Position numbers and translations under genes: made by a program. 64,000 nucleotides of DNA, taken from the NCBI GenBank assembly GCA_012518215.1, contig JAAYSV010000020.1, positions 1 to 64,000 of the forward strand. The letters are read 5' to 3'. Under the pieces are notes generated by a model, which saw only the letters and a list, made by a program, of their open reading frames with translations, ran no database searches and was not told where the DNA came from. This document shows, one piece after another, positions 881-58,089 of the stretch. How positions within the stretch are numbered: the first letter of the stretch is position 1; each line of letters opens with the position of its first letter. The stretch is from Bacillota bacterium. GTDB lineage: Bacteria > Bacillota > Dethiobacteria > DTU022 > PWGO01.

Positions 881-1768
881 TTGCAGTTGGATATGCGGGG
901 CTTGTACCGCCGCCTGGAAGAAATCAATTATATCGGTGAAGAAGAAAATATTTTTACTGTCTTTCTGGCCCTGAGGCTGCAGAAGCCTTTGCTGATAGAA
1001 GGTGCGCCTGGGGTGGGAAAAACAGAGATGGGCAAGGCTCTGGCAGAGGTTTTTGGAGCCGAACTGATCCGGTTGCAGTGCTACGAGGGTCTTGATGAGA
1101 ACAAGGCACTCTACGAATGGAATTATCAGAAGCAATTGCTGGCCATACAGATGAGCAAGGAACTGGGTGTGCAGGATCTGGACACCGCGGATCTGTTTAC
1201 CATGGATTATCTGTTGCAGAGACCCCTTTTGAAGGCAATCAGATCTACCGAAAAGGCGGTACTGCTCATCGATGAGGTTGACAAATGCGACCATGAATTC
1301 GAGGCGTTTTTGTTCGAGGTTTTATCCGATTTCCAGGTATCGATTCCCGAATTGGGCACGATCAAAGCCCGGCAAATACCGATCGTCGTGCTGACCAGTA
1401 ACAGTGAACGGGAGCTTTCTGATGGGTTGAGGAGGCGCTGTATCTATCTCTATCTTGATTTCCCCAGTGTGGAAAGGGAGATCAAGATCATCAACAGGAG
1501 GGTTCCGGAAGCGAGGGGGAGGTTGGCCGAGGAAATCGCCCGAACGATCAGTGTCCTGCGGGAAAATGGGCATATCCAGAAGAAACCTTCCATTGCTGAA
1601 ACAATTGACTGGGCAAGGGCCCTGGTTTCGCTGGGACATGATCGTCTGGATGCCACCCTGATACAGAATTCATTGGGGGTGCTGTTGAAGTCCAAGCGGG
1701 ACCAGCAGATCTTCAAGGAAGAAGTGGATGTGGAGATGCTCTGGCGCAGGGTGGGTGAACGATCCTGA
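881..1768 (+). CDS. MoxR-family AAA+ ATPase
   Basis: The gene starts at TTG 881 behind GAAAGGGG. The 295-residue product has a Walker A motif GAPGVGKT at 41-48, Walker B VLLIDE near 127-132, a sensor-1 asparagine in VVLTSN, and the LRRRC arginine-finger region, followed by a helical lid. MoxR ATPases act as chaperones that help build cofactors or complexes, usually with a VWA-domain partner; CoxD of the aerobic CO dehydrogenase system is a studied relative. The next gene is such a VWA protein and the third encodes a CooC-type ATPase. I infer a maturation role; the client is unknown. Confidence 0.9.
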   Translation: MQLDMRGLYRRLEEINYIGEEENIFTVFLALRLQKPLLIEGAPGVGKTEMGKALAEVFGAELIRLQCYEGLDENKALYEWNYQKQLLAIQMSKELGVQDLDTADLFTMDYLLQRPLLKAIRSTEKAVLLIDEVDKCDHEFEAFLFEVLSDFQVSIPELGTIKARQIPIVVLTSNSERELSDGLRRRCIYLYLDFPSVEREIKIINRRVPEARGRLAEEIARTISVLRENGHIQKKPSIAETIDWARALVSLGHDRLDATLIQNSLGVLLKSKRDQQIFKEEVDVEMLWRRVGERS

Positions 1769-1815
1769 ACAGTTGTTTGTTCTGAAGGGGGTGCCGGACA
1801 GGCGCGGGGGACGGG

Positions 1816-3138
1816 ATGGTCAAGAACAGTTTTGAGATACATATCGTTAATTTTGCCTCCTTGCTTCGCAGGCAGGGGGTACTGATCGGAACCGCTGAAC
1901 TTCTGGATGCGCTGGAGGCAATCATGATCACCGGGCTGGATGACCGGCGCAAGTTCAAAGCTGCCCTCAGGGCAACCATGGTCAAGAAGGCTGCCGATTT
2001 TGATCTTTTTGAGCGGAATTTTGAACATTATTTTGCCTCGCCGGGTGAGGCTGCGGAACAGTGGCATCAGGGTAAGAAGCTGGAGAAGAGGTACCAGAGG
2101 TATCTGGACCAGGCCGATGAGGAATTGGTTTTTATGGGGGAACAGCTGGATCTGGAGGAATCAGAGAAAGTTGTTTTTTCTGCTTTGCCTGAAAAAGAGA
2201 GGGCCAGGATAAGGCATTTTGTCAGGGAAACGGAAGAGGGGAACAAGATCAGCCCAACCTTCAAACCCATGCTGGAATCGATTGTCAAGGGTTCGCTTCG
2301 TTACTGGCGAAGCCGCCATGGATTGTCGATGCAGAGGCCGCCCGCGGTTACCGGTGATTCTTGCCGGGATTGGGCTCTGGCTGCTTCGGGGGAGGGCAGT
2401 TCGACAGGGTTGAAGATGCAGGACATGAGTATGATTTCCGGGAAGGATGTGGCTGCCGCCACCGAGATCATGCGCAAGATGTCACGCAAACTCGCCGTTT
2501 CGCTTTCTCGCCGTTACAAGATGGGCGGACAGCGGTGGCGGTTTGACCCGCGCCGGACAATGAGGAATAATATGAGCCATGGCGGTTATATTTACGAATT
2601 GAAATATGTCCAAAGGAAAAAGCATAAATTACGACTTCTGCTTCTGTGTGATGTTTCAGGTTCCATGATCCGCTATACGGGTTTCATTCTTCCGTTTATC
2701 TATGGCCTGAATGCCGTGGTTGGGGATATAGAGAGTTTTGTATTTGCCGAGGGGCTGGAAAGGATCACGCCATTCCTGGCCCGGGGCCTCTCCTTTGAGG
2801 AGACGATACGGGAAGTCATGAAAGACAATAAACAGTGGGGTGGGGGCACAAGACTCGGGGTGGCTCTGGATGGGATTCTGTGCAGATATGAAAGCCTGTT
2901 GACTCCCCGCACGATCGTGTTGATAATCAGCGATACCAAGACTACCTCTTTGCAGCATGCTCTGGAAAATGTGAACGCCTTGAAGGCGAAGGTCAAAGAT
3001 GTTATCTGGCTGAATACGCTTCCCAAGCCTGAATGGGAGCGGTTTCGTTCTGTCCAATCTTTTGGCAGGGTTACGCGTATGTTTCCCTGCAATCGGCTTA
3101 TTGATCTGGAGAGAATCGTCGAGAAAAAAATAATCTAG
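1816..3138 (+). CDS. VWA-domain protein, CoxE-like
   Basis: This 440-residue protein is the usual partner of MoxR ATPases. The first ~250 residues are helical and rich in charge; the C-terminal half is a von Willebrand A fold with an intact MIDAS signature DVSGS beginning at D279, a GGGTRLG loop for the MIDAS threonine, and ISDT further on. There is no signal peptide or membrane segment, so it should be cytoplasmic. The ATG at 1816 follows GCGGGGGACGGG. It lies 47 bases after moxR and 20 before cooC, which suggests one transcript. CoxE-type proteins act with CoxD-type ATPases in metal-centre assembly; that function is inferred here. Confidence 0.87.
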   Translation: MVKNSFEIHIVNFASLLRRQGVLIGTAELLDALEAIMITGLDDRRKFKAALRATMVKKAADFDLFERNFEHYFASPGEAAEQWHQGKKLEKRYQRYLDQADEELVFMGEQLDLEESEKVVFSALPEKERARIRHFVRETEEGNKISPTFKPMLESIVKGSLRYWRSRHGLSMQRPPAVTGDSCRDWALAASGEGSSTGLKMQDMSMISGKDVAAATEIMRKMSRKLAVSLSRRYKMGGQRWRFDPRRTMRNNMSHGGYIYELKYVQRKKHKLRLLLLCDVSGSMIRYTGFILPFIYGLNAVVGDIESFVFAEGLERITPFLARGLSFEETIREVMKDNKQWGGGTRLGVALDGILCRYESLLTPRTIVLIISDTKTTSLQHALENVNALKAKVKDVIWLNTLPKPEWERFRSVQSFGRVTRMFPCNRLIDLERIVEKKII

Positions 3139-3158
3139 GAGAAGGAGGAGATCTTGTC

Positions 3159-3914
3159 ATGACTGTAAAGATTGCCATAGCCGGGAAAGGGGGAACCGGG
3201 AAAACGACGCTTTCAGCACTACTGATACAATATCTGGCCAAAAACCATCCCGGCAAATCCATATTTGCTGTCGATGCCGATGCCAATGCCAATCTCAACG
3301 AGGTGCTCGGGCTGGAGGTAGAAGAGACGATCAGCGATATTCTGGATTCTATCAAGGATCCCAAGGCCGTGCCTGCAGGGATGACCAAGGATATGTTCGT
3401 GCAATATGGCATCAGCAGGGCGATAGTGGAGATGGATGCCTATGACCTTCTGGTCATGGGGAACCCGCAGGGGCCGGGATGTTACTGTTTTCCCCTGGAC
3501 CTGCTGAGCAAATATCTTGAAAGAATGGCCAAAAATTATGATTACATGGTTACCGACAACGAGGCGGGACTGGAACATCTCAGCCGGAAGGTTATTCCGT
3601 CGATGGATTATCTGTTGATTGTCAGTGATGCCACCGTCAGGGGCATTAGATCGGCCGGCAGGGTAAGGGAGATAGCCGAAAGGGTCAAAATTGACATAGG
3701 CAAGACATTTCTGATCGTATCTCGCGGAGACGATGAACAGTTGGCTACATTGAAAGGCGAGATTGACAGGACAGGCTTGACCTTGCTGGGAGTGGTTCCC
3801 TATGACAGCCTGATTCCCCAGTATGATCTTGAAGGCCGTGCGCTGGTGGATCTTCCCGCCGATTCCGTGTCCTTGAAAGCTTCGGAGGGATTGTTCCGCA
3901 AGCTGGGGTTTTAG
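3159..3914 (+). CDS. cooC: CooC-type nickel-insertion/maturation ATPase (first copy)
   Basis: The 251-residue protein has the deviant Walker A motif GKGGTGKTT at 9-17, the VDADANANLNE switch region typical of the CooC/MinD/NifH class, and the CYC motif (C108, C110) that in CooC binds metal at the dimer interface. CooC ATPases insert nickel into carbon monoxide dehydrogenase or, as AcsF, help mature acetyl-CoA synthase. A strong AGGAGAAGGAGG site precedes ATG 3159. This copy sits with MoxR and VWA genes rather than with a CODH gene; a second CooC lies at 51508 at the head of the CODH/ACS operon. Which client this copy serves cannot be read from sequence. Confidence 0.88.
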   Translation: MTVKIAIAGKGGTGKTTLSALLIQYLAKNHPGKSIFAVDADANANLNEVLGLEVEETISDILDSIKDPKAVPAGMTKDMFVQYGISRAIVEMDAYDLLVMGNPQGPGCYCFPLDLLSKYLERMAKNYDYMVTDNEAGLEHLSRKVIPSMDYLLIVSDATVRGIRSAGRVREIAERVKIDIGKTFLIVSRGDDEQLATLKGEIDRTGLTLLGVVPYDSLIPQYDLEGRALVDLPADSVSLKASEGLFRKLGF

Positions 3915-5314: not shown

Positions 5315-5341
5315 TTGATACAAAATCACAATATATTTACT

Positions 5342-5455
5342 CTTATCCAGAGTGGAGGAGGGACGGGCCCGATGAATCCCGGCAACCAGGCTTCACTGCC
5401 AATGGTGCCAATTCCCGTGGAGGCCTTTCTGCAACCGGGGCCCCCGTTAGATAAG
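5342..5455 (+). promoter_or_regulatory. SAM-I (S-box) riboswitch
   Basis: The aptamer is recognisable from its P1 strands (CTTATCC at 5342 and AGATAAG ending at 5455) and its core, including GAGGGAC, GCCCGATGAA, CCCGGCAACC and GGTGCCAATTCC. S-box RNAs bind S-adenosylmethionine and switch off transcription. It precedes metK, the enzyme that makes SAM, so this is product feedback. Confidence 0.95.
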
Positions 5456-5466
5456 AGGTTATGTGC

Positions 5467-5528: not shown

Positions 5529-6725
5529 ATGAACGAAGAACGTAGATTATTTACCTCGGAATCGGTCACGGAAGGACATCCCGACAAGGTCGCCGACCAG
5601 ATTTCCGATGCCATTCTGGATGCCATTCTCAAGGATGATGAAAATGGGAGGGTGGCGGTAGAAACCCTTGTTACCACCGGGTTGGCTCTGATAAGCGGGG
5701 AAATAACCACCAGATGTTATGTCGATATTCCCCGTATTGTCCGGAACAAGATCAAAGAGGTTGGCTACACGCGTGCCAAATATGGTTTTGACGGGGACAC
5801 ATGCGCGGTGCTCTGTTCAATAGACGAGCAATCGCCGGATATAGCCATCGGGGTGAACAAGTCCCGGGAATACAAACTCGAGCAGGACGGGGAGAATGAA
5901 TACGACAGGTTCGGGGCCGGTGATCAGGGGATGGTATTCGGCTTTGCTTGCAACGAAACTCCGGAATTGATGCCCCTGCCCATCGCCCTGGCCCACAAAC
6001 TGGCCCAGAGACTGGCTCTGGTCCGCAGGGAGAGGATTATAAAATACCTCAGGCCCGATGGCAAGACCCAGGTTACGGTTGAATATGAAGGTGATAAACC
6101 TCTCCGGGTAGATACCATCGTGGTGGCAGCACAACATCGGGATGATATCGAGTCGGGCCGGATTTACGAGGACATCCTGAACGATGTGATCGGGGAGATC
6201 GTGCCCCCGGGACTGATCGATGAACGTACTCGTATTCTGGTCAACCCGACGGGTCGATTCGTGGTCGGCGGGCCTCTTGGTGATGCCGGGTTGACGGGAC
6301 GGAAAATCATCGTGGATACATATGGTGGTCATGCCCGCCATGGCGGGGGGGCCTTCTCGGGCAAGGATCCGACCAAGGTCGACCGTTCGGGAGCGTATGC
6401 TGCACGCTATATCGCCAAGAACATCGTGGCAGCCGGGTTGGCTGACAGGTGTGAAATCCAGGTGGCCTATGCCATCGGAGTGGCCAGGCCCGTTTCCATG
6501 TCCGTGGATACTTTTGGAACCAACAGGATTTCCGAAAGAAAAATCGAGGCCATGATACGGGAACATTTTGATTTGAGGCCCGGGGCCATAATCGACCACT
6601 TGAACCTGAAGAATCCTATCTATCAAAGCCTGGCTGCCTATGGCCATTTTGGACGCCCGGAATTGGATCTTCCCTGGGAGAAAACGGACAAAGCTGCTGT
6701 CATCAGGAAAGAAGTCGGTCTGTAA
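5529..6725 (+). CDS. metK: S-adenosylmethionine synthetase
   Basis: MetK joins methionine and ATP to form SAM, releasing phosphate and diphosphate. The 398-residue product is full length and shows [16 protein letters not shown] near residue 16, the GAGDQG motif of the methionine/ATP site, and the glycine-rich [16 protein letters not shown] loop. ATG 5529 follows GGGAGGGAAGAAG. Expression is evidently controlled by the SAM riboswitch and terminator just upstream. Confidence 0.97.
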
Positions 6726-38587: not shown

Positions 38588-40412
38588 GCTAAGATCCGGA
38601 CATGGAAGGGGAATCAAGATCAATAAAAGAGAGCGCAAAAAGAAAATCGGAGGAAGGCATGCAGTTCCTCGACACGGGAGGGGCCGGAGAAAAAAGAAGG
38701 GTACCTTGACCGGAACCTTTCAGGGTACACGCCGGGGCTACGCGTTTCTGATTCCCGATTCAAGGGAAGAAGCGGACATTTTTATTCCGGCGAACAAGAT
38801 CGGCGAGGCGGCTGAAGGTGATCGTGTTTCAGTCAAGATTCTGCCCGGGGGATCAGGGAAAAACCGTAAAGGCGAAGTCATCTCGGTTATCCGGTCGGCA
38901 GGGGCGAAAATGATAGACAGGGAGAAGTTCCCTTCCCGGGTGATGAAGGAGTTACGCAACCTTCCCGGGGAGAAAGACATAGCATCAATTGCACTCCAGG
39001 AAGGAAGAGCCGATTTGCGAGATGAGTTGATTGTTACCGTGGACCCGGCGGACGCCAGGGACATGGATGACGGTATTTCTCTCGGGGTGCGTGATGTCGG
39101 CGGATACCGACTCGGTGTCCATATTGCCGATGTGAGCTATTATGTCCGCGAGGGAACGGCTCTTCACCGGGAGGCTCTCAAACGGGGAACAAGTGTTTAT
39201 TTGACCGACAGGGTTATCCATATGTTACCGCCCCTGCTTTCCCAGAAACTGTGCAGCCTTCAGGAGAATAAAGACCGCCTGGCTATCAGTGTCATCATAG
39301 AACTCGATGTGCGGGGGAGAGTGGAAAAATATGATATTTTCCCCAGCCTGGTCAGGGTAAAACGGAAGCTAAGTTATGAACAGGCAGAGGAGATGCTCTC
39401 TGCAGGGGGAGAATCGGCGGAAATAGGGGCCATGCTCAAAAGCATGGATGAGTTGGCGTCCATGCTTAAAAAGAACCGTCTGCGAAACGGGGCACTCTTC
39501 CTCAATCTTCCCGAAACAAAGATTACCGTTGATGACGAAGGAAAACCCCTGACCATAGAACGCAAATTTCCGGGGAGGGCTGAATCGATCATCGAGGAAT
39601 TCATGTTGCTGGCCAACGTTTCCGTATGTGAGCATTTTGGTGTAAAGGATCTGCCCTTCATTTACCGGGTGCATCCTCCCCCCACAGAAGAGAAGATGAT
39701 CATGTTCAGGAACATCCTGTCGCTGATGAACATCAGGATCAGCGGCGATTTGCGCAAGATCAAACCCCGGGCCATACAGTCGGTGCTCGACAATGTAAGA
39801 GGGACGCCTCTTGAAAGAACGGTCAATTATCTTCTGTTGCGTTCGCTGCCCCATGCTTATTACAGCGTTAACAACGAAAGGCATTTCGGGCTTGCTTTGC
39901 AAAAATATACGCACTTCACTTCGCCCATACGGCGTTTTCCCGATCTGCAGGTTCACGCTATGATAAAAGATCAACTTGCAGGGAACATGGATGAGGGAAG
40001 GATTGCTTTTCTGAAGAAACAACTTCCCGGGCGGGCCGAACATGCTTCCTGCATGGAAAGAAAAGCCATGGAGGCGGAAAGGGAGAGTGTTCAACAAAAA
40101 AAAGTTGAATACATGGAGGGAAAGGAAGGCGAATCTTTTCCGGGCATCATCTGTGGTGTGACTTCTTTTGGAATCTTTGTAGAACTGCAAAATACGGTCG
40201 AGGGGTTGGTTTTGCTGGAAAGCCTGCGGGATGATTATTACCGGTATCATGAGGAGATGATGGCTGTGATCGGCAGGCGCACCCGTAAAAAATACTGCCT
40301 TGGTGATCCTGTAAATATTGAAGTTGCCAGGGTGGATCTGCAGAAAAAGGTTGTTTATTTTTATCTGCTTTCCAGGGGTGAAACCGGGGATTTCCCCTCT
40401 CCCGAATCATAA
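38586..40412 (+). CDS. rnr: RNase R-type 3'-5' exoribonuclease (VacB/RNB family), short N-terminus
   Basis: The protein (up to 608 residues) has a cold-shock domain (TGTFQGTRRGYAFLIPD, DIFIPANKI), the RNB catalytic core (TVDPADARDMDDGISL with the metal-binding aspartates), LALQKYTHFTSPIRRFPDLQVH, and a C-terminal S1 domain (FPGIICGVTSFGIFVEL). It degrades structured RNA from the 3' end. The usual N-terminal helix-turn-helix and first part are missing; instead there is a lysine/arginine-rich segment. The start is uncertain: TTG 38586 lies in the terminator T tract, ATC 38619 has the best ribosome site (GGAAGGGG), and a TTG near 38706 would remove the basic segment. Confidence 0.85.
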   Translation: MLRSGHGRGIKINKRERKKKIGGRHAVPRHGRGRRKKKGTLTGTFQGTRRGYAFLIPDSREEADIFIPANKIGEAAEGDRVSVKILPGGSGKNRKGEVISVIRSAGAKMIDREKFPSRVMKELRNLPGEKDIASIALQEGRADLRDELIVTVDPADARDMDDGISLGVRDVGGYRLGVHIADVSYYVREGTALHREALKRGTSVYLTDRVIHMLPPLLSQKLCSLQENKDRLAISVIIELDVRGRVEKYDIFPSLVRVKRKLSYEQAEEMLSAGGESAEIGAMLKSMDELASMLKKNRLRNGALFLNLPETKITVDDEGKPLTIERKFPGRAESIIEEFMLLANVSVCEHFGVKDLPFIYRVHPPPTEEKMIMFRNILSLMNIRISGDLRKIKPRAIQSVLDNVRGTPLERTVNYLLLRSLPHAYYSVNNERHFGLALQKYTHFTSPIRRFPDLQVHAMIKDQLAGNMDEGRIAFLKKQLPGRAEHASCMERKAMEAERESVQQKKVEYMEGKEGESFPGIICGVTSFGIFVELQNTVEGLVLLESLRDDYYRYHEEMMAVIGRRTRKKYCLGDPVNIEVARVDLQKKVVYFYLLSRGETGDFPSPES

Positions 40413-40610
40413 CCGCGATGGCCCGCCTGTGTTATAACCCGGTAACAAAGGGGAAGATTTCATATTACCAGGATTTTTCCATCCGGAGCAGCAGCCTGCT
40501 TGAAACAGGATGAGCAGGAAAGATCGAGCCATGAAAAAAGTCATGGGAGTACATGCAATATCTTTCCGTGCAGCGGCGAAAATTTGTACAATCATGTTTT
40601 ATTCCGATAA
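40413..40610. other. Intergenic region after rnr
   Basis: No gene is seen; in particular there is no smpB or tmRNA, which often follow rnr. Two small hairpins are present, including CCATGA/TCATGG (40529-40534 with 40541-40546), without a T tract. Confidence 0.4.
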
Positions 40611-40639
40611 TTGACAATGTTGATCTATTTGTTCATAAT
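40611..40639 (+). promoter_or_regulatory. Promoter upstream of nadA
   Basis: TTGACA (40611-40616) is a perfect -35 element, 17 bases before CATAAT (40634-40639). The nadA start codon follows 35 bases later. Confidence 0.65.
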
Positions 40640-40674
40640 AAATGATAAGTTCCGGGCACGTGGAGGTAATACTG

Positions 40675-41592
40675 TTGCAGCAAGGAAACACAGATGCTTT
40701 GAAAGACAGGATCCAGCAACTTAAAAAGCAGCGGAATGCTGTAATATTGGCTCATAATTACCAGATTGGCGAGGTACAGGATATAGCCGATTTCGTGGGT
40801 GATTCCCTTGATCTGAGTCACAGGGCAGCAGAGGCAGATGCGGAGACGATAGTTTTTTGCGGGGTTCATTTCATGGCTGAAAGTGCGGCTATGCTCGCTC
40901 CGGAAAAAACGGTGCTCCTGCCGGAGGCGCTTGCGGATTGCCCTCTGGCCAACATGGTTACCGGGCCGCAGTTGAAGAAAGTGCGGCAGCGCTACCCGGG
41001 TGTTCCCGTGGTAACCTACATCAATTCCACGGCCGAGGTCAAAGCGGAAAGCGATATCTGCTGTACTTCTGCAAATGCAATTGAAGTTGTCAATTCTTTG
41101 CGGGAAGAGCGGGTTCTGTTCGTACCGGACAAGAATCTGGGCGGATACGTTTCTCGTTTCACTTCCAAAGAGGTTATTCTATGGCATGGATACTGTATCA
41201 CGCATCACAGGGTAACTTTGCGGGATATCGAAAAAGCCCGCCGCGATCATCCAGGTGCCCCGATTATCGTTCATCCCGAATGTCCGCCTGAAGTGAGCAT
41301 CAATGCCGATCAGGTTTTATCGACGGGAGGCATGGTAGATTTTGTAGCCCGGACGGGAGAGAAGAAATTGGTCATCGGCACGGAAGTGGGCTTGCTTTAC
41401 CGTTTGAAGAAAGAAAACCCGGAAAAAGAATTTTATCTTCTCTCGCCGGGCCTGCTCTGCCCCAACATGAAATACACCACGCTGCACAAAGTGGCTCATG
41501 CACTGGAACACATGGAAACGGTAATCTCCGTTCCGGAGGAAATCCGCAAGGAGGCTGTCGTCTCCCTGGCGCGCATGCTTGAGGTCAGATGA
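40675..41592 (+). CDS. nadA: Quinolinate synthase A
   Basis: NadA condenses iminoaspartate with dihydroxyacetone phosphate to quinolinate and needs a [4Fe-4S] cluster. The 305-residue protein shows ILAHNYQ, the cysteines in VFCGVHFMAES, DICCTSANA and LCPNMKYTTL, and GTEVGLLYRL. I take TTG 40675, after GGAGG with eight-base spacing; ATG 40642 would place the ribosome site inside the gene. nadC follows after 153 bases, but nadB, which supplies iminoaspartate, is absent from the window. Confidence 0.94.
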   Translation: MQQGNTDALKDRIQQLKKQRNAVILAHNYQIGEVQDIADFVGDSLDLSHRAAEADAETIVFCGVHFMAESAAMLAPEKTVLLPEALADCPLANMVTGPQLKKVRQRYPGVPVVTYINSTAEVKAESDICCTSANAIEVVNSLREERVLFVPDKNLGGYVSRFTSKEVILWHGYCITHHRVTLRDIEKARRDHPGAPIIVHPECPPEVSINADQVLSTGGMVDFVARTGEKKLVIGTEVGLLYRLKKENPEKEFYLLSPGLLCPNMKYTTLHKVAHALEHMETVISVPEEIRKEAVVSLARMLEVR

Positions 41593-41745
41593 GGGTTCAC
41601 CGATCTGGCATCTGCATGTTGCAAGGCGGTTGTTCCGGGGAACGGAAAGGTTTGATGGAGGGGCAGTTTTTTTGTATGTATGCTGATGTAAAAGCATGAC
41701 AATGTTGATTCATGATACATTTTTTGTTTGGAGGAGCAGAAGAAA

Positions 41746-42594
41746 ATGATTCTTACCCCATGGGCCAGAGAGATAATGGAGCTTGCCTTGAAGGAAGATA
41801 TCGGGGGCGGAGATTATACCACCTCGCTTATCGTGCCTCCAGAAAAAGTGGGCGATGCAGAGATAATCACCCGCGAGGACGGTGTTATTGCCGGGCTGGA
41901 AGTTTGCAAAGGAGTTTTCAAAATGGTGGACGAGAGAATTGATTTCAATTCCCGTGTTACCGATGGGGATTCCGTGAGCAGGGGAGCGGTGATTGCCGAG
42001 ATTGACGGCCCGGTGCAACCGATAATGATGGCGGAAAGAACGGCATTGAATTTTCTGCAGCGTCTCTCGGGCATTGCCACATTGACGAGGATATGGACCG
42101 AGAGGATCAAGAATCATGCTGTCTTTCTTCTGGATACCCGCAAAACATCCCCCGGTCTGCGCTATCTTGAAAAATATGCGGTCATGGTGGGCGGGGGACG
42201 GAACCATCGCCTGGGTCTTTCAGGGGGGATCGTCATCAAGGAAAATCATATTGCCGCTGCCGGGGGAATCAGTGCTGCCGTGAAGAGAGCAGTGATGAAG
42301 GCCCCGATAACGCTGAAGATAGAAGTCGAGGTTACCGATCTGGATGAATTTCGTGAAGCCCTGGATGCCGGGGCAGACCTGATCATGCTAGACAATATGG
42401 ATCCGGAAACGATCAGGGAGGCGGTCAAGATAAATGCCGGGCGCGTCCTTCTGGAAGCCTCGGGTGATATCTCCGAAGCACGACTGGAAGAATATGCCCG
42501 GACCGGGGTTGATTTTATCTCCAGCGGAGCACTCACACATTCCTTCAAATCTTTGAATCTTAGCCTTCTGACTAAAAACATCGATCAAGGTTAA
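41746..42594 (+). CDS. nadC: Quinolinate phosphoribosyltransferase (nicotinate-nucleotide diphosphorylase)
   Basis: NadC turns quinolinate and PRPP into nicotinate mononucleotide. The 282-residue protein has EDIGGGDYTT near the N-terminus, ERTALNFLQRLSGIAT, LDTRKTSPGLRYLEKYAV, GGGRNHRLGLS, and the C-terminal barrel segments LIMLDNMDP and EASGDIS. ATG 41746 is preferred because GGAGGAG lies nine bases upstream, inside the longer TTG frame. Confidence 0.95.
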   Translation: MILTPWAREIMELALKEDIGGGDYTTSLIVPPEKVGDAEIITREDGVIAGLEVCKGVFKMVDERIDFNSRVTDGDSVSRGAVIAEIDGPVQPIMMAERTALNFLQRLSGIATLTRIWTERIKNHAVFLLDTRKTSPGLRYLEKYAVMVGGGRNHRLGLSGGIVIKENHIAAAGGISAAVKRAVMKAPITLKIEVEVTDLDEFREALDAGADLIMLDNMDPETIREAVKINAGRVLLEASGDISEARLEEYARTGVDFISSGALTHSFKSLNLSLLTKNIDQG

Positions 42595-42740
42595 ACTTAA
42601 ATATAGCGCGAACCGAATCATACGGTGTGGCCCGTGACAACATGGGCGAATTCCGTATTTCGGGGATCGCTATATTTTGCTTTGTGGGGGCTTCCCCCCG
42701 GGATTGAATGTAAACTTCAATGAACAAAGGAGTGTTTGTA

Positions 42741-43559
42741 GTGCGCCCGCTGTGGAAAGGATCGATCAGTTTCGGATTGGTCAATATACCCGTAAAGCTA
42801 TATACTGCAACCCGGAAAAAAACGGTGCAATTCAGGCAACTTCACGAAAAATGTCTGACCCCCCTGGAATACAAAAGATTTTGCCCCCGCTGCCAGAAGG
42901 AAGCTGCTTACGGGGAGATCGTCAAGGGTTATGAATACGACCGGGATCGGTTCGTGATCATCAAAGAGGAAGATCTGGCCAAAATACCGGACAAAACCAC
43001 AAAAACAATCGACATCGTGGATTTTGTTGAATTGTCGGAAATTGATCCCTTGTATTATAACCAGGCTTATTATTTGACACCAACGGAGATGGGAGAAAAA
43101 GCATACAACCTTCTGCAGGAGTCAATGAGGGAGACGGGGAAAATTGCCGTTGCGCGCCTGACCATCAGGTCGAAGCATTCTCTGGCCGTGATCCGTACTT
43201 ACGAGGATATTCTCTCCCTGGAGACAATGTTTTACCCGGATGAGGTGCGTGACACGGCAGAGTTGCCATCGTGGAACCGGGAGATTGAAATTCACGAACA
43301 AGAATTGAAGATGGCCAGGGAATTGATTGAAAAGCTTACCGCTCCTTTTGATCCGGGACAGTATGTGGATGAATACAGGAAGGCCTTGCTGGAAATCATC
43401 GAAGCCAAGGTTGCCGGCGAGGAAATTGCCATCGTGGAATCTGCCGAAGGAGGGCGTGTTACCGATCTGGTCGAAGCCCTTCAGGCCAGTTTGGAAGTTG
43501 CGGCCGGAGAAGAGGAGGAGGCTGGCAAAAAGGAACCGACGGGGGTGGGCCGTGCTTGA
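42741..43559 (+). CDS. ku: DNA end-binding protein Ku
   Basis: Ku forms a homodimeric ring on double-strand ends and recruits the ligase in bacterial non-homologous end joining. The 272-residue protein starts MRPLWKGSISFGLVNIPVKLY, as bacterial Ku proteins do, and has the beta-barrel and bridge regions plus an acidic, lysine-ended tail (EEEEAGKKEPTG). GTG 42741 follows AAAGGAG at ten bases. It overlaps the ligase gene by eight bases. Confidence 0.94.
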   Translation: MRPLWKGSISFGLVNIPVKLYTATRKKTVQFRQLHEKCLTPLEYKRFCPRCQKEAAYGEIVKGYEYDRDRFVIIKEEDLAKIPDKTTKTIDIVDFVELSEIDPLYYNQAYYLTPTEMGEKAYNLLQESMRETGKIAVARLTIRSKHSLAVIRTYEDILSLETMFYPDEVRDTAELPSWNREIEIHEQELKMARELIEKLTAPFDPGQYVDEYRKALLEIIEAKVAGEEIAIVESAEGGRVTDLVEALQASLEVAAGEEEEAGKKEPTGVGRA

Positions 43560-44514
43560 TCTTTGTTCTCCCTTGCAGCAGTTCTTTCCCCGGGTCAGGC
43601 CGATGGAACCGACCAGCGCTTCGCGGCCTGTCAAGGAGCCCGGCTATGTATCACAGATCAAATGGGATGGTGTACGTATCCTGGCTTTTGTAACTGCTGA
43701 CGGAGTCAGGTTGCAAAACCGCGGAGGAGGGGAACGTACGCGGCAATACCCTGAATTCCAGATTCTGAAGGAGGTGGTGGGGTCGGGGGAGGCACTGATT
43801 GATGGGGAGGCGGTGGCCCTGGAAGCGGGTTATCCACGTTTTTCACGCATCATGGAAAGGGATTCCCTTCAGCATGAGAACAGGATCAAACGGCTTTCCC
43901 GCCACCGCCCATGTACCTACTGCATCTTCGATCTCCTTTTCTGGAGGGGGGAAGACCTGACCGGTTTCCCGTTAAACCACCGTCAGGATGTGTTGAACGA
44001 GGCTTTCGGAAGCCTGCAGGGAGAACCGACAGTTTATTTGAATGAAAACTATGAAGATGGGGAGTTGTTGTTCCAACAGGTGTCCGACCGGAATCTGGAA
44101 GGTATAGTGGCCAAGGATATTCACAGCCCTTACCTGATCGGGCGCAAATCTTCAAGCTGGCGGAAGGTCAAACCCAGGCGCAGGCAGCTTTCCGTGGTGG
44201 TGGGTCTGGCCTTCAGGGGAGGGTTGGTGAGTTCTCTATTGCTGGGGGCTTACCATGATGGGGAGTTGCGCTATATAGGCCGGGCGGGGTCAGGTTTAAA
44301 TACGGAAATGGCCAGGGAATTGCGCAAGGCCGGGGAGATACTCGGTGTCCCCGAACCTTTATTTGTCAACCCGCCCTGCCCGGGGGAAGTGGCCTGGCTC
44401 AGGCCCTTCCTGACCGTCGAAATTGAATTCATGGAATGGACGGAAAACTTGAAAATGAGGGCACCGGTTGTCATTGGATTTTCAAAATCCAGGCCTGAAG
44501 AAGCAATCTATTGA
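43552..44514 (+). CDS. ATP-dependent DNA ligase (LigD ligase domain, stand-alone)
   Basis: A 320-residue ligase. Motif I is SQIKWDGVR, with the lysine that takes AMP; motif III is YCIFDLLFW; motif IV EGIVAKD; motif V SWRKVKP; and an OB-fold follows (LLLGAYHDGELRYIGRAGSGL). It corresponds to the ligase module of LigD alone, with no polymerase or phosphoesterase module attached. GTG 43552 lies within the end of ku. It would seal ends that Ku has bridged. Confidence 0.92.
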   Translation: MLDLCSPLQQFFPRVRPMEPTSASRPVKEPGYVSQIKWDGVRILAFVTADGVRLQNRGGGERTRQYPEFQILKEVVGSGEALIDGEAVALEAGYPRFSRIMERDSLQHENRIKRLSRHRPCTYCIFDLLFWRGEDLTGFPLNHRQDVLNEAFGSLQGEPTVYLNENYEDGELLFQQVSDRNLEGIVAKDIHSPYLIGRKSSSWRKVKPRRRQLSVVVGLAFRGGLVSSLLLGAYHDGELRYIGRAGSGLNTEMARELRKAGEILGVPEPLFVNPPCPGEVAWLRPFLTVEIEFMEWTENLKMRAPVVIGFSKSRPEEAIY

Positions 44515-51507: not shown

Positions 51508-52260
51508 ATGAAGATCGCGGTCTCAGGAAAAGGTGGCGTGGGTAAAACTACATTGTCTTCAGGTTTGGTAAAGTGTTTTGCCAATACAGGCGTTCCCGTG
51601 TATGCAATTGATGCCGATCCGGATACAAGTTTGGGGATAACCCTGGGGTTGGATCCGGAAAAGCTGGATCAGCTCGTACCTCTCATCGATATGAAGGATG
51701 TGATCGAGAAGAAGAATGCCGGTGGGGGGCTGCTGGTGGACTTGAACCCGGATGTGGAAGATGTGATTGAAGATTATTGCTTGAAGGAGGGAGAAATTCT
51801 TTTTTTCAAAATGGGGGGCATAAAGCAAGGAGGCTCCGCATGTTATTGTAAAGAAAACTCATTTCTCCAATCGATTCTCAATTCGCTCCTGCTGGATAAA
51901 AGTGACCCCGTGATCATCGACATGAGCGCCGGCATAGAACATTTGACCCGGGGAACTGCCCGCGGGGTGGACCTGATACTGGTGGTCACCGAACCATCCG
52001 TGACCAGTGTCAAAACCTCCATGATCGTGAAAAAATTGGCGGAGGAAATAGGCGTCAAAAAAGTAATGTTCGTTGGCAACAAGATCGCCGGGCAGGAAGA
52101 CAGTGACTTCTTGTATGATCATCTGCCACGGGACGATTTTGCTGGTATGATTCCTTTTAACCGAGATATCTTGCGGCAGTCGCGGGAGCAAAATTCCGCA
52201 GATAGGTCAATCATTATTCAAGAAATAGAAGATATCTTCAACAATTTTCTGGGGAGGTGA
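51508..52260 (+). CDS. cooC: CooC-type CODH/ACS maturation ATPase (second copy)
   Basis: The 250-residue protein has the Walker A motif GKGGVGKTT at 7-15, IDADPDTSLG in the switch region, the CYC metal motif (C112, C114), and VGNKIAGQEDSDFL later. CooC/AcsF ATPases insert nickel into CODH or ACS. It is the first gene of the CODH/ACS operon and so the likely maturase for it. It is clearly different from the copy at 3159, for instance in VDADANANLN versus IDADPDTSLG. Confidence 0.93.
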   Translation: MKIAVSGKGGVGKTTLSSGLVKCFANTGVPVYAIDADPDTSLGITLGLDPEKLDQLVPLIDMKDVIEKKNAGGGLLVDLNPDVEDVIEDYCLKEGEILFFKMGGIKQGGSACYCKENSFLQSILNSLLLDKSDPVIIDMSAGIEHLTRGTARGVDLILVVTEPSVTSVKTSMIVKKLAEEIGVKKVMFVGNKIAGQEDSDFLYDHLPRDDFAGMIPFNRDILRQSREQNSADRSIIIQEIEDIFNNFLGR

Positions 52261-52287
52261 ATTTTGGGGTAGGTTATACCGGTTCAG

Positions 52288-52306
52288 AACACTTGGTTCA
52301 AGTGTT
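52288..52306 (+). other. Hairpin between cooC and acsA
   Basis: AACACTTG (52288-52295) and CAAGTGTT (52299-52306) pair perfectly around a 3-base loop. The downstream T content is scattered (ATTTTGTTG), so it may be an mRNA processing or stability element rather than a terminator. Confidence 0.45.
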
Positions 52307-52369
52307 TATCATGTATTTTGTTGTAGCATCGTATTTTTGCCATGTAAATGTATACAAGGAGGTTAGAAA

Positions 52370-54349
52370 ATGTCCGCAGGAGATAAAAAAGAGAAAAAAA
52401 AACCTGATTCCAAAAGGACTATTGACCCGGCAGCACTAGCGATATTGGATAAGAATGACGGGCAGATCGAGACGGCTTATGATCGTTATGTCAAGATGCA
52501 ACCGCAGTGCAATTATGGCCGGACGGGGATCTGCTGTCGAATTTGCCTGCAAGGGCCTTGCCGTATTACCAGGAAAGCATCAAAAGGTATTTGCGGGGCT
52601 CATGGCTACACCATCGTCGCCCGCAATCTGATCAGGGCCATCAACGGCGGATGTGGTGCACATGCTGACCACAGCCGTCATATGCTTCTGACCCTGACGG
52701 AGATGTTTGCGGGGAAAGCTCCGGATTATACCATCACCGACACGAAGAAGCTTTACCGGGTGGCCGATCGGCTGGGGCTTTCCAGGGAAGGCAAGAGTGA
52801 TGATGATCTGTTGAAAGAAGTATATGACGTCGCGCTAAGTGATTTTACGAAGATTGACGATACACCGTGCCGCTGGCTGGAGACAACGGTGGTTCCGGAT
52901 CGCCTGAAAAAATTCATCGAATGCAACATTTCTCCCCGTGGTATCCATACGACTATCTCCGAAACCATGGGGCAGACGCACATTGGTGTCGACTCCGATC
53001 CGGTCAACCTGGTATTCCAGGGTTTGAAAACATCTCTGGCCGATTATATCTGCATGCATATTGCTACTGATATTTCCGACATTCTGTTCGGAACCCCCAA
53101 GCCGGTTACTTCCGAAGCCAATATGGGGATAATCGATCCGGAGATGGTCAACATTGCTTTACATGGTCATAACCCGTTGCTGAGCGAGATGATCGTGCGT
53201 GTGGCCAGGGAGATGACCGATGAGGCAGAGGCAGCAGGCGCAAAAGGGATCAAGTGCATGGGAATCTGTTGCACCGGTAACGAGGTGCTGATGCGTCAGG
53301 GAGTCCCCGTTTTGACCAACTTCCTCTCCCAGGAACTGCCAATAATGACCGGGGCCATCGATGCCATGGTCGTGGATGTTCAATGTATCATGCCCGGCAT
53401 ACAGGCGGTGTCGGAATGTTTCAATACCAAGATCATAACGACCATGTCCCATTCCAAGATCGCCGGAGCCCACCACGTGGATTTTGTGGAAGAGAAGGCT
53501 GTGGAGAAAGCCAAAGAGGTGGTCCGGATAGCAATTCAGGGTTTCAAGGATAGGGATTCCTCGAAGGTAGATATTCCCGATATCAAACACAAGGTGACCG
53601 CCGGTTTCAGTTACGAGGCGATGGAAGACCTGTTCAGGGCGGTCAATCCCGAGGAACCGATCAAGGTTCTGACCGATGCCATCGAAACGGGGCAGTTGCG
53701 GGGGGTAATCCTTCTTTGCGGCTGCAACAACCTCAGGGTGATACATGACCTGAGCGCTTCCCATATAATCAAGGAACTGGCCAAGAATGACGTCCTCATG
53801 GTGGCTACCGGTTGCATCGCGGGTGCAGCGGCCAAACTGGGCTTGATGAATGACGAGGCTGTTGAGGAGTACGCCGGCGACGGCTTGAAGTCTTTCATCC
53901 ATCAGCTCAACGAGGCCAATGCCGATCAGCTCAACGGTCAGAAACTGCCCCTGGTATTCCACATGGGTTCCTGTGTGGACAACAGCCGTGCTTACAATCT
54001 ATCCAATGCAATGGCAGAACAGTGGGGGGTCGACACTCCCAAGGTGCCTTTCATGGCCTCGGCTCCCGAAGCCATGAGTGAGAAGGCGATATCTATCGGC
54101 AGCTGGTGCGTTACACTGGGCATGCCCACCCACGTGGGTGTGATACCCGAGATCACCGGAAGTGCCCTGGTCAACGGAATTGCGCTGCAGATTGCGCATG
54201 ATGTTTACGGAGGGTATTTCATCTGGGAAGAAGATATAGAGAAATCGGTGGAGAAAATCATGGGAGCACTTGATGAGCGGACCTGGAAACTGAGGGTTCA
54301 CCAGAGAACTGCCGAAAAATTTGAAACGGAACTGACCAAAACCTGGTAG
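52370..54349 (+). CDS. acsA: Ni-Fe carbon monoxide dehydrogenase catalytic subunit
   Basis: This subunit interconverts CO2 and CO. The 659-residue protein shows all cluster ligands: C47 and C55 for the intersubunit D-cluster, C56, C59, C64 and C75 for the B-cluster, then C-cluster segments HADHSRH, ALHGHNPLLSE, CTGNEV, DVQCIMPGIQ, LLCGCNNLR, TGCIAGAAAKLG and HMGSCVDNSR. Next to acsB it should be the ACS-bound form, passing CO through an internal tunnel. AAGGAGG precedes ATG 52370, and acsB starts 28 bases after the stop. Confidence 0.97.
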   Translation: MSAGDKKEKKKPDSKRTIDPAALAILDKNDGQIETAYDRYVKMQPQCNYGRTGICCRICLQGPCRITRKASKGICGAHGYTIVARNLIRAINGGCGAHADHSRHMLLTLTEMFAGKAPDYTITDTKKLYRVADRLGLSREGKSDDDLLKEVYDVALSDFTKIDDTPCRWLETTVVPDRLKKFIECNISPRGIHTTISETMGQTHIGVDSDPVNLVFQGLKTSLADYICMHIATDISDILFGTPKPVTSEANMGIIDPEMVNIALHGHNPLLSEMIVRVAREMTDEAEAAGAKGIKCMGICCTGNEVLMRQGVPVLTNFLSQELPIMTGAIDAMVVDVQCIMPGIQAVSECFNTKIITTMSHSKIAGAHHVDFVEEKAVEKAKEVVRIAIQGFKDRDSSKVDIPDIKHKVTAGFSYEAMEDLFRAVNPEEPIKVLTDAIETGQLRGVILLCGCNNLRVIHDLSASHIIKELAKNDVLMVATGCIAGAAAKLGLMNDEAVEEYAGDGLKSFIHQLNEANADQLNGQKLPLVFHMGSCVDNSRAYNLSNAMAEQWGVDTPKVPFMASAPEAMSEKAISIGSWCVTLGMPTHVGVIPEITGSALVNGIALQIAHDVYGGYFIWEEDIEKSVEKIMGALDERTWKLRVHQRTAEKFETELTKTW

Positions 54350-54377
54350 ATCGATCCGAAGAAAAGGAGGAGAGAAA

Positions 54378-56594
54378 ATGAGCGAAGCCAGTGGTGTGTT
54401 ATCCAGAGAATGGAAAGAGTCATTTGACGAAATATTTGATGGCGCTGTGGACGAGAACAATCCGCCGCTAGCGCTGTTTGAAAAAGCATACGACGGGGCG
54501 GTTATCGCCACCAGTTATGCCGAGATACTGATGAACCAGGCTATTCGCCGCTATGGGCCGGATCAGGAGGTGAAGTATCCGGATACCGGTTATTACCTCC
54601 CCGTGATCAGGGCATTGAGCGGTGAGGCCGTTACCACATTGGGGCAACTCCCCCCCATACTTAACCGCATGAGGGATCAGATCAGCGAGGAGCTTAATTT
54701 CGAAAATGCCCGTCTCTGCGGTGAATCTACCGCGTACGCAGCAGAGATTATCGAAGCAATCAATTATCTTGATCCCGAGAAAGCCCATGTAACACCCTGG
54801 ACCGGTTTTCTGGGTGACCCGGTCGTGCGCCGTTACGGTATTCTTCTGGTGGACTGGACCATCCCCGGCCAGGCGGTGATTGTCGGCAAGGCCAAGTCAA
54901 CCGAAGCTCTGGCCGAAATCATCAAAGATCTGCAATCCAAAGGATTCATGATCTTTCTCAGCTACGAGGTGGTCGACCAGGCCATCGAGGCCGATTTGAA
55001 ACTGGGGATCGATTTTATCGCTTTCCCCACCGGTAACTTTACCCAGGTAGTTCATGCCGTGAACTATGCCCTGCGTGCCGGGATGGCTTTCGGAGGGATT
55101 CCCCCGGGAGAGCGGCAGAATACGCGTGACTACCAGCGCCGGAGGGTGCGTGCCTTTGTTCTTCATTTCGGAGAACGTGATGAGGTTCAGGTGGCGGCCC
55201 ATTTCGCGGCAATCTTTCTGGGATTTCCTGTTATCCTCGATCAGGAGTTACCCGAGGACGAGCAGATCCCCAACTGGTATGTTTCCAACCCTGACTACGA
55301 TACCATGGTTCAGGTGGCGATGGAGATCAGGGGTATCAAATTGAAGATTGTCGACATCCCCGTTCCCATTACCGTGGGGCCTGCCTTCGAGGGCGAAGCC
55401 ATCCGCAAGGGCGACATGTACGTCGAGTTTGGCGGTCCCAAGAATACCGGTTTTGAGCTGGTGGAGATGGTGGGCGAGGGTGATATAGAAGACGGCAAGA
55501 TCGAGGTCATCGGGCCGGAGATTGATGATGTCGAGGAAGGCGCCTCGCTTCCCGTGGGGCTGATAGTCAAGATTTTCGGCCGGAAGATGCAGAAAGACTT
55601 CGAAGGGGTTCTTGAAAGGCGCCTCCACTATTTTGTCAACTACGGCGAAGGTTTGTGGCATATGGCGCAGCGGGATACCATCTGGATGCGGATCAGCAAG
55701 GATGCCGCGGCCAAGGGTTTCAAGTTCCATCATTTTGGCGACCTGATCATCGCCAAGTTCAAGGATGAATTTCCCGCGATCGTTGACCGTGTGCAGGTTA
55801 CGTTCATTACAGATCCGGAAAAGGTGGAAGAAGGACTCCTTCATGCCCGGGAACTTTATGGTGAGCGTGATGAGCGGCTCAGCGGGCTTACGGATGAGGC
55901 CGTGGAACTTTTCTATTCCTGCATTCTGTGTCAGTCATTTGCACCCAACCACTGCTGTGTGGTAACCCCGGAGCGTCTGGGCCTGTGTGGTGCGGTGAGC
56001 TGGCTGGATTCCAAGGCTTCCTATGAGATCGATCCCAACGGCCCCTGCCGACCGATCGAAAAGAAAGGCCTTCTTGATGAAAGGATCGGGATGTGGGAAT
56101 CTGTCAATGAATACGTTTACAACAACACCAACCGTACCATCGAGAAATGTTCCATGTACAGTTTCATGGAGGACCCGATGACTTCCTGTGGCTGCTTCGA
56201 ATGTATCATGGCAATCTTCCCCGAGGCCAACGGGGTCATGATTACCACCCGTGAATACAGCGGGGACACTCCATGTGGAATGAGCTTCTCCACCCTGGCC
56301 GGATCATGCGGCGGGGGAATACAGACCCCGGGTTTCATGGGGCATGGCAGGCAATATGTATTGAGCCGCAAATTTATCAGTGCCGATGGAGGGTTGGGAC
56401 GGTTGGCATGGATGCCTACAGAGCTGAAGGAAGCTCTCGGTGATGAACTGCGGCAGCGTGCCGAAGAAGAAGGACTGGGTGCGGACTTCGTGGACAAGAT
56501 TGCCGATGAGACGGTGGGAGTTACCGCCGAGGAAGTCCTTCCCTTCCTCGAGGAAAAAGGACATCCGGCTCTGGCCATGGATCCGTTGATGTAG
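54378..56594 (+). CDS. acsB: Acetyl-CoA synthase (CODH/ACS A-cluster subunit)
   Basis: ACS joins a methyl group from the corrinoid Fe-S protein, CO and CoA into acetyl-CoA. The 738-residue protein has the A-cluster ligands with the spacing of the Moorella enzyme: C515, C518, C527 and C537 for the [4Fe-4S] cluster and the C604-G-C606 motif (TSCGCFEC) for the distal nickel. The long N-terminal CODH-binding domain is present, so this is the bacterial, full-length type. AAGGAGGAG precedes the start. A terminator-like hairpin lies right after the stop. Confidence 0.97.
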   Translation: MSEASGVLSREWKESFDEIFDGAVDENNPPLALFEKAYDGAVIATSYAEILMNQAIRRYGPDQEVKYPDTGYYLPVIRALSGEAVTTLGQLPPILNRMRDQISEELNFENARLCGESTAYAAEIIEAINYLDPEKAHVTPWTGFLGDPVVRRYGILLVDWTIPGQAVIVGKAKSTEALAEIIKDLQSKGFMIFLSYEVVDQAIEADLKLGIDFIAFPTGNFTQVVHAVNYALRAGMAFGGIPPGERQNTRDYQRRRVRAFVLHFGERDEVQVAAHFAAIFLGFPVILDQELPEDEQIPNWYVSNPDYDTMVQVAMEIRGIKLKIVDIPVPITVGPAFEGEAIRKGDMYVEFGGPKNTGFELVEMVGEGDIEDGKIEVIGPEIDDVEEGASLPVGLIVKIFGRKMQKDFEGVLERRLHYFVNYGEGLWHMAQRDTIWMRISKDAAAKGFKFHHFGDLIIAKFKDEFPAIVDRVQVTFITDPEKVEEGLLHARELYGERDERLSGLTDEAVELFYSCILCQSFAPNHCCVVTPERLGLCGAVSWLDSKASYEIDPNGPCRPIEKKGLLDERIGMWESVNEYVYNNTNRTIEKCSMYSFMEDPMTSCGCFECIMAIFPEANGVMITTREYSGDTPCGMSFSTLAGSCGGGIQTPGFMGHGRQYVLSRKFISADGGLGRLAWMPTELKEALGDELRQRAEEEGLGADFVDKIADETVGVTAEEVLPFLEEKGHPALAMDPLM

Positions 56595-56607
56595 GAGCTG
56601 CATGAAA

Positions 56608-56641
56608 AACAGCAGCACCGGAAACGGTGAGGCTGTTTTTC
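56608..56641 (+). terminator. Terminator-like hairpin between acsB and acsC
   Basis: A two-part stem, ACAGC/GCTGT enclosing CACCG/CGGTG around a GAAA tetraloop, is followed by TTTTC. It has all the marks of an intrinsic terminator inside what otherwise looks like one operon, so it may lower transcription of acsCDE and metVF relative to acsAB. Confidence 0.75.
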
Positions 56642-56695
56642 TTTGGTTTATCAACTTGTAATCTATAAAGTAAAGGTATGAAAGGAGTAGAGGAG

Positions 56696-58024
56696 ATGGC
56701 GTTAACTGGTTTAGAGATCTTCAAACATCTGCCCAAGACCAATTGCAAGGAGTGTGGGATGCCCACTTGCCTGGCTTTTGCAATGGCCCTGGCTGGCGGG
56801 AAAACCTCGCTGGACAAATGTCCTCATGTGACCGAGGAAGCCAAGGCGGCATTGGATTCTGCCGCCGCACCTCCGATTGCTTTGGTGGAGGTCGGTGTAG
56901 GAGATCATGTGGTGCAGTTGGGTGATGAAACGGAAATTTTCCGGCATGACAGGCGTTTCTATCATCCGACCGGCGTGGCGGTAACCATCAGTGACAATGA
57001 AGATGTGGCGGCCAAGGCGGAGAAATTCGAGGCCCTGGAGTTTGATCGGGTGGGGCTTCACTACGTGACCGATATGGTGGCGGTCAAGTGTGATTCGGGA
57101 GATGCAGCCAAATTCAAGGCCGCTGTGGAAATCGTGGCTGGCAAGACGCAGAAAGCGATGATCCTGATGTGTGAGGATCCGGCAATCATGGAAGGGGCCC
57201 TGAACGTGGTGGCTGACCGTCGCCCACTCGTCTATGCAGCCACAGCAGACAACTACGAGAAAATGACCGAATTGGCGAAAAGCAAGGAATGCCCCCTGGT
57301 CGTCCGTGGGGATGGGCTTGATGATACTGCCTCCCTGGTGGAGAAGGTCGTGGCCCTGGATTACAAGGAATTGGTTATCGACACGGGTAGCAGGGATACC
57401 AGCAAGGTGCTGGCTGATATGACCGTGATCCGCCGTCTGGCGGTGAGGAAGAAGTATCGCCCCTTTGGATACCCGACCATTGCTTTTACCAACAAGGAGG
57501 ACCCCCAGGAAGAGATCATGCAGGCGGGCGTCTACATGAGCAAGTATGCGGGCATCGTGGTGATCAAGGCAGCGGAGAAACAACAATTATTGCCGTTGCT
57601 ATCATGGCGCCAGAACCTGTTCACGGATCCGCAGAAACCCATTGCTGTTGAACCTATGCTTTACGAAGTAGGTGACGTACAGGCGGATTCTCCCGTCTAC
57701 TGCACCACGAATTTCTCCCTCACTTACTTTATTGTCGAGGGTGAGGTCGAGGCCACTCGCATTCCCGCTTATATTCTGGCGGTGGATACCGGTGGTGTCT
57801 CCGTTCTCACTGCTTATGCGGATAACAAATTTTCAGGCGAGACTATCGCTGAAGCGATGAAGCAGGCTGGCCTGGAGGAGAAGGTCAACCACAAGAAAAT
57901 AATTATCCCCGGACACGTTGCCGTTCTCAAGGGTTCGCTGGAGGAAGAGTCGGGCTGGGATGTACATGTGGGGCCCAGGGAGGCTTCCGGCATCAACAAG
58001 TATATCAAGGAAGTTTATGCCTAG
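56696..58024 (+). CDS. acsC: Corrinoid iron-sulfur protein large subunit
   Basis: AcsC carries the [4Fe-4S] cluster and, with AcsD, the cobamide that shuttles methyl from AcsE to ACS. The 442-residue protein begins with the cluster motif C17, C20, C25 and C42 (TNCKECGMPTC, DKCP), has a TIM barrel in the middle and the C-terminal cobamide-binding domain. ATG 56696 is chosen because AAAGGAG lies eight bases upstream; ATG 56678 would precede the ribosome site. Confidence 0.96.
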   Translation: MALTGLEIFKHLPKTNCKECGMPTCLAFAMALAGGKTSLDKCPHVTEEAKAALDSAAAPPIALVEVGVGDHVVQLGDETEIFRHDRRFYHPTGVAVTISDNEDVAAKAEKFEALEFDRVGLHYVTDMVAVKCDSGDAAKFKAAVEIVAGKTQKAMILMCEDPAIMEGALNVVADRRPLVYAATADNYEKMTELAKSKECPLVVRGDGLDDTASLVEKVVALDYKELVIDTGSRDTSKVLADMTVIRRLAVRKKYRPFGYPTIAFTNKEDPQEEIMQAGVYMSKYAGIVVIKAAEKQQLLPLLSWRQNLFTDPQKPIAVEPMLYEVGDVQADSPVYCTTNFSLTYFIVEGEVEATRIPAYILAVDTGGVSVLTAYADNKFSGETIAEAMKQAGLEEKVNHKKIIIPGHVAVLKGSLEEESGWDVHVGPREASGINKYIKEVYA

Positions 58025-58089
58025 GAGAGTGGCAGGGGCCCGGAAAACCCGGGCATTGTGATTATATACTGTAAGAAAGGGGCGTTAAT

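Follow-up and report, generated by a model that had tools for sequence, protein, structure and literature searches.

MoxR–VWA metal chaperones and ATPases of the CooC/AcsF kind are both already known. Among the former, the proposed action of NorQ–NorD is to twist nitric oxide reductase open through the von Willebrand factor A (VWA) protein for iron insertion (PMC13036017), and CoxD–CoxE serve the Mo-Cu cluster of aerobic carbon monoxide dehydrogenase, CODH (PMC4240915). Among the latter, CooC1 is a nickel maturase of CODH. ATP-dependent insertion of nickel into acetyl-CoA synthase (ACS) is reportedly the function of AcsF (Gregg et al. 2016, cited in PMC10134865). Here we analyze three adjoining genes (the trio) encoding a MoxR AAA+ ATPase, a CoxE-type VWA protein and a MinD-type ATPase, at positions 881–3914 of the window, which is the whole stretch of DNA analyzed (64 kb; positions 1–64,000 of contig JAAYSV010000020.1, assembly GCA_012518215.1) from a 2.14 Mb genome of the class Dethiobacteria. 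The trio is probably an accessory module for maturation or repair of CODH/ACS, with the dinickel A-cluster of ACS as its most likely target. Its assignment to CODH/ACS, or more exactly to genomes with ACS, is well supported; the trio ATPase and the MoxR–VWA pair are inherited together with ACS.

The original prediction of a compact three-gene row was borne out, with the same open reading frames (ORFs) on the same strand and gaps of exactly 47 and 20 bases. The locus comprises the following features.

864–873, + strand: putative ribosome-binding site (GAAAGGGGTG) upstream of the MoxR gene, read from the sequence only
881–1768, + strand: MoxR-type AAA+ ATPase, 295 amino acids (Pfam AAA_5; 30 relatives aligned)
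1816–3138, + strand: CoxE-type VWA protein, 440 amino acids (Pfam VWA_CoxE, alignment, AlphaFold2 model)
3159–3914, + strand: SIMIBI/MinD-type ATPase, 251 amino acids, orthologue of the acs-operon ATPase adjoining acsD (AcsF-like)

The MoxR gene starts with TTG at 881, and an in-frame ATG at 893 is an alternative start. Its product matched Pfam AAA_5 (45.5 bits, cut-off 22) and has the AAA+ core, in which Walker A (GAPGVGKT), Walker B (LIDEVD) and sensor are intact and the motifs are conserved in the 30 relatives. MoxR and VWA genes adjoin in nearly all loci examined, giving the ATPase the VWA partner expected of its family. The VWA protein has a helical N-terminal half and a C-terminal VWA domain, and matched Pfam VWA_CoxE (124.9 bits, cut-off 26.4). 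Its metal ion-dependent adhesion site (MIDAS) is complete (D279-x-S281-x-S283, T345, D373) and invariant in 34 aligned sequences. The VWA profile found no match among PDB sequences. Fold matches of its AlphaFold2 model (predicted local distance difference test, pLDDT, 84.9; predicted template modelling score, pTM, 0.57) were the midasin MIDAS and NorD, with a target template modelling (TM) score of 0.54 over 245 columns and 16% identity to NorD chain 9qhe_G in a single-chain comparison.

The MoxR–VWA pair resembles NorQ–NorD in its adjoining MoxR AAA+ and VWA genes, complete MIDAS and VWA fold match (9qhe). The hallmark of NorQ–NorD itself is a VWA finger in the AAA+ pore, with ATP-driven client remodelling. 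In contrast to NorQ–NorD, which has a haem/non-haem iron oxidase as its client, the trio would act on nickel CODH/ACS; it also includes a third, nickel-type ATPase, and the N-terminal half of its VWA protein has no close sequence relation. The CoxD/CoxE type originally assigned to the pair stands as far as the VWA_CoxE family and complete MIDAS are concerned, and CoxD–CoxE likewise combine an AAA+ ATPase with a VWA_CoxE protein in metal-cluster maturation of a CO-handling enzyme. However, enzyme and metals are unrelated, the CoxF partner is not a MinD-type ATPase, and the ORF lists around the trio contained no coxLMS genes for aerobic Mo-Cu CODH; the trio links instead to Ni-CODH and ACS. The best NCBIfam matches of the MoxR and VWA proteins were the MadB ATPase and MadC VWA families, at scores well below the membership cut-offs (269.8 against 475 bits and 90.4 against 600 bits, respectively).

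The third gene had been called CooC, a name that gives the correct superfamily but not the correct subfamily. Its product matched Pfam CbiA/MinD type (55.8 bits, cut-off 25.4), with a MinD fold, a deviant (signature-lysine) Walker A motif (GKGGTGKTT) and a CxC motif (C108, C110) invariant in aligned relatives. This motif aligns with the CxC nickel site of CooC1 (PDB 3kje), which shares the fold and deviant Walker A and is the closest solved structure, including as best match of the predicted ATPase model. CODH/ACS loci of about 110 genomes were fetched and gene-labelled, and operon tables for the acs loci were built from all ORFs. Two operon orders were seen, both including an ATPase gene that adjoins acsD (AcsF-like; hereafter the acs-type ATPase, of which the trio ATPase is a member). 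The Moorella-type order is CooC-CODH-ACS-AcsC-RACo-ATPase-AcsD-AcsE; the Clostridium-type order is ATPase-AcsD-AcsC-AcsE-ACS-RACo, sometimes with CODH and CooC in front, and the Clostridium-type clusters examined carry the ATPase. In a maximum likelihood tree (quick search, Shimodaira–Hasegawa-like approximate likelihood ratio test, SH-aLRT, support), the trio ATPases formed one clade (97) nested with 13 in-operon copies (97). Carboxydothermus CooC1 fell in the other clade with the CooC proteins of operon starts (99), including the one in the window (51508–52260), ruling out a CODH-type CooC as the identity of the trio ATPase. Because of this nesting and its 41–58% identity to the in-operon copies, the trio ATPase is orthologous to the gene adjoining acsD. 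It shares with the in-operon proteins the CxC motif and near-perfect co-occurrence with ACS, and differs in its gene position, outside the acs operon and with MoxR–VWA. The simplest reading, and a probable one, is that the acs ATPase gene moved just once from the operon to join the MoxR–VWA pair. Two distinct families, the acs-type and the CODH-type ATPases, therefore share the annotation CooC.

In M. thermoacetica the acs-type ATPase gene is mentioned as an unannotated isoform of acsF (PMC8671834), and acsF is the name of a gene in the CODH/ACS cluster described in an Acetobacterium wieringae paper. The acs-type ATPase is likely, though unproven, to be the protein that Gregg et al. 2016 called AcsF. 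One genome of the window's class (G025, locus L191) has an archaeal-type cdh operon with a CdhA-like protein of 766 amino acids, a short CdhC-like protein of 414 amino acids and an acs-type ATPase 56% identical to the trio ATPase.

The remark that the trio lacks a structural gene holds at the locus itself; the same window, however, contains a complete Wood–Ljungdahl operon at 51508–61600, as listed below.

51508–52260, + strand: CooC of the acs operon, CODH-type; shares about 30% identity with its paralogue, the trio ATPase, and falls with CooC1 in the tree
52370–54349, + strand: anaerobic Ni-Fe CODH catalytic subunit (TIGR01702, 713.9 bits, cut-off 478), probable client complex
54378–56594, + strand: ACS (NF040764, 1062.6 bits), probable client
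56678–58024, + strand: acsC-like, putative corrinoid iron-sulfur protein large subunit, from operon position and similarity to acs genes elsewhere
58025–58089, no strand: acsC–acsD junction, with RACo and AcsF-like ATPase both missing; present here in most other Moorella-type operons
58090–59064, + strand: acsD-like, corrinoid iron-sulfur protein small subunit, from operon position and similarity
59189–59983, + strand: acsE-like methyltransferase, from operon position and similarity
60019–60699, + strand: metV-like, from operon position and similarity
60674–61600, + strand: metF-like, from operon position and similarity

The A-cluster cysteines of the ACS are present (C515, C518, C527, C537 and C604-G-C606). 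The gene order of the operon is that of the window's class, where the operon is Moorella-type without the ATPase gene (acsC is followed by acsD directly or via RACo) and the ATPase is placed in the trio. Elsewhere in this genome, contig C8 (L182, about 38598–44202) encodes a 243-amino-acid protein that matches only ACS residues 346–519 (Pfam CdhC, E 2e-14) and has a C-terminal FxCxxCxYxxxC and no CGC. It lies with a CooC-like ATPase of its own, which has 31% identity to the trio ATPase, and with two activases of the ASKHA type and two proteins resembling HgdB/BcrB; parts of this gene set recur in five other genomes (L200–L204).

Co-occurrence was assessed in 398 Firmicutes genomes, with presence of MoxR–VWA judged by the VWA profile. 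Matches over the C-terminal half only (about residues 196–438), mostly a second MoxR/VWA paralogue, were excluded; partial or split full-length cases (G127, G177, G206) were counted nonetheless. This second pair (VWA protein of about 470 amino acids, matched over its C-terminal half only) was seen at L154, L181, L223 and L042; some genomes have it close to acs or CODH genes, or at a distance of a few kb from the first pair. The acs-type ATPase was found in 118 genomes and ACS, by Pfam, in 115, with five genomes having the ATPase and no ACS match. In four of these (G320, G340, G399, G478) ACS is present in pieces at the ends of contigs, and as cases of pair and ATPase without ACS they were rejected as artefacts. 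The gene is broken there in several copies, which family searches then call absent; near-identical ACS duplicates collapsed in assembly are probably the cause. After correction, 117 genomes had both ATPase and ACS, one had the ATPase only (G356, a draft metagenome-assembled genome, MAG), two had ACS only (G050, G058) and 278 had neither.

MoxR–VWA was found in 76 genomes, every one of which carries the acs-type ATPase (76/76). Among the 163 CODH-positive genomes, the pair was present in 75/118 with ACS compared to 0/45 without (Fisher p 9e-16, descent ignored). Counted by family, which lessens the effect of descent, all 29 pair-bearing families have ACS, compared to 10/115 others (p 3e-22, with family counts made manually). 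Since the trio genes are in Firmicutes almost only found with CODH/ACS, they are probably overlooked helpers of this enzyme. The question whether the client is CODH, ACS or another metalloenzyme, left undecided in the original prediction, now leans to ACS or the CODH–ACS complex. Operon type also mattered: the pair occurred in 71/95 Moorella-type and 0/20 Clostridium-type genomes (types assigned by eye; G143 and G213 typed from congeners), and MoxR–VWA thus distinguishes the two bacterial CODH/ACS operon types. This extends to family f6 of the window's class, where genera with a Clostridium-type operon (G071–G074, G082, G083) have the acs-type ATPase (45–48% identity) in or near it and no VWA match, and the other genera mostly have the trio.

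Conservation of the row was surveyed in 98 genomes of the window's class by comparing 66 strong VWA matches with ATPase matches. The VWA gene was followed by the orthologous ATPase gene on the same strand at 59/66 loci, mostly 20–150 bases away. A chance neighbourhood, or the rare co-occurrence that would have spoken against the original prediction, was thereby ruled out. In family f8 (L205, L206) the MoxR–VWA and ATPase units run divergently, separated by a metallo-hydrolase-like gene. Contig L057 (JAGVAS010000149.1), titled Desulfovibrio, carries a trio 60–72% identical to that of the window (MoxR, ATPase) among neighbouring genes of the window's class; it is probably mis-binned.

Outside the class the pair is mostly found apart, among unrelated genes, and the ATPase is retained within the acs operon. 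Separate lineages nevertheless show the pair linked to acs or CODH genes. The pair lies within the acs operon at L073 (ACS-AcsC-RACo-ATPase-AcsD-AcsE-CooC-MoxR-VWA-MetV-MetF), shortly upstream of CooC-CODH-ACS at L149, after CODH with no ACS beside it at L148 (CODH-MoxR-VWA), and adjoining CODH-CooC-ACS in divergent orientation at L068, L087 and L099. G140 carries both the pair and the acs-type ATPase. In G453 the ATPase gene precedes the VWA gene on one contig by coordinates, with space for MoxR between.

Correlated natural loss was seen in genus g26 (G050, G052), which keeps ACS and acsC (G050 also acsD and acsE). No CODH above the cut-off, no CooC and no acs-type ATPase were found in this genus, and VWA matches were weak at most. 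The CGC motif of ACS binds the distal nickel. In g26 it is replaced by CGF or CRF; both CGC cysteines are kept in 116/117 aligned ACS sequences, with G050 the sole exception. At L230, L320 and L321 (G050, G052) the CooC-CODH stretch is apparently deleted between clpC-like and ACS genes. Together with co-occurrence and linkage in unrelated lineages, this loss strongly supports the proposal of a nickel-enzyme maturation machine with CODH/ACS as a possible client.

Several observations weigh against A-cluster maturation by the trio. MoxR–VWA is absent from 43/118 genomes with CODH and ACS, and the pair is therefore not generally required. A selective need in some Moorella-type genomes, for repair after metal mis-loading or at high CO flux, is our guess. 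CGC is kept in G044 (87% complete), where CODH, the acs-type ATPase and VWA were not found, and in G058 (90% complete) and G059 (79%), where the ATPase was not found. The trio or parts of it occur with CODH and ACS undetected in G356 and G039 (MAGs or drafts), and G032 (MAG or draft) has CODH with ACS undetected; a trio with neither nickel CODH nor ACS, the kind of case that the original prediction named as its refutation, was seen only in the draft MAGs G356 and G039. The genomes are related, so the p-values above are not independent tests, and within the class the genes may be adjacent through a single inherited event.

The best surviving alternative is that the module serves the CODH C-cluster or the whole CODH–ACS assembly, its motor helping to dock or open CODH and its ATPase supplying nickel. 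The pair's absence from all 45 CODH-positive genomes without ACS, which also lack the acs-type ATPase, makes this unlikely, even though 75/76 VWA-positive genomes have CODH and the pair adjoins CODH without ACS at L148. G044 (ACS, intact CGC, CODH not found) would fit such a role, being also without the ATPase, as would g26, which lost CODH. The acs operon, however, already has a CODH-clade CooC, and in most operons the acs-type ATPase adjoins acsD or ACS, not CODH. Action on the corrinoid iron-sulfur protein AcsCD, in cobalamin loading or activation alongside RACo, seems improbable. The ATPase gene does adjoin acsD, often after RACo, in both operon types, yet G050 and G052 lost ATPase and pair with CODH and an A-cluster ligand while keeping corrinoid protein genes, and the ATPase CxC resembles the CooC1 nickel site. 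Least probable is a coincidence of lifestyle, with MoxR–VWA in another role (e.g. membrane or stress, like RavA–ViaA) sharing hosts and neighbourhood with the ATPase: the pair does lie mostly among unrelated genes outside the class, and the neighbourhood within it may be inherited once, but VWA never occurs without the ATPase, the association spans 29 families, acs/CODH linkage arose in several unrelated lineages, and the pair is missing from those f6 genera whose operon is Clostridium-type.

Two other features of the window lie apart from these genes. A SAM (S-adenosylmethionine) riboswitch (5340–5457; Rfam RF00162, 81.1 bits) is upstream of an S-adenosylmethionine synthetase gene (5529–6725). 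The acs operon is followed by thiolase-like and enoyl-CoA hydratase-like genes (61745–63793), which would fit fatty-acid or syntrophic metabolism.

For the favoured role in A-cluster maturation or repair, we propose by analogy that a MoxR hexamer, coupled via the VWA protein, would spend ATP on opening or remodelling ACS, or the CODH–ACS complex. The AcsF-like ATPase would then deliver nickel via its CxC site, or swap out a wrong metal such as zinc, and the CooC of the acs operon (51508–52260) would serve the CODH C-cluster. We infer this division of labour, in which AAA+/VWA would remodel and the ATPase deliver nickel, from the known systems. ACS shifts between closed and open forms, and zinc may replace nickel (PMC12289521). 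Recombinant C. hydrogenoformans CODH–ACS was made with CooC1-containing cells, followed by five days of NiCl2 reconstitution (PMC12289521); an efficient native loader would therefore be useful. We give an even chance to the more specific idea that MoxR–VWA and the AcsF-like ATPase form a single ATP-driven device for opening ACS and for loading its dinickel A-cluster or correcting it.

Papers on the genome context of CODH name only CooC, CooT and CooJ, and we found no earlier link of MoxR or VWA to Ni-CODH/ACS, or of MoxR–VWA to CooC/AcsF, in an open-access library. What appears new here is that these known factors are linked with one another and with Ni-CODH/ACS. At the core of the Wood–Ljungdahl pathway stands CODH/ACS, an enzyme whose A-cluster assembly in the cell is little understood. 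If our reading is true, the trio would supply a factor that has been missing from Moorella-type CODH/ACS maturation, and would be the first MoxR–VWA machine to have a nickel client.

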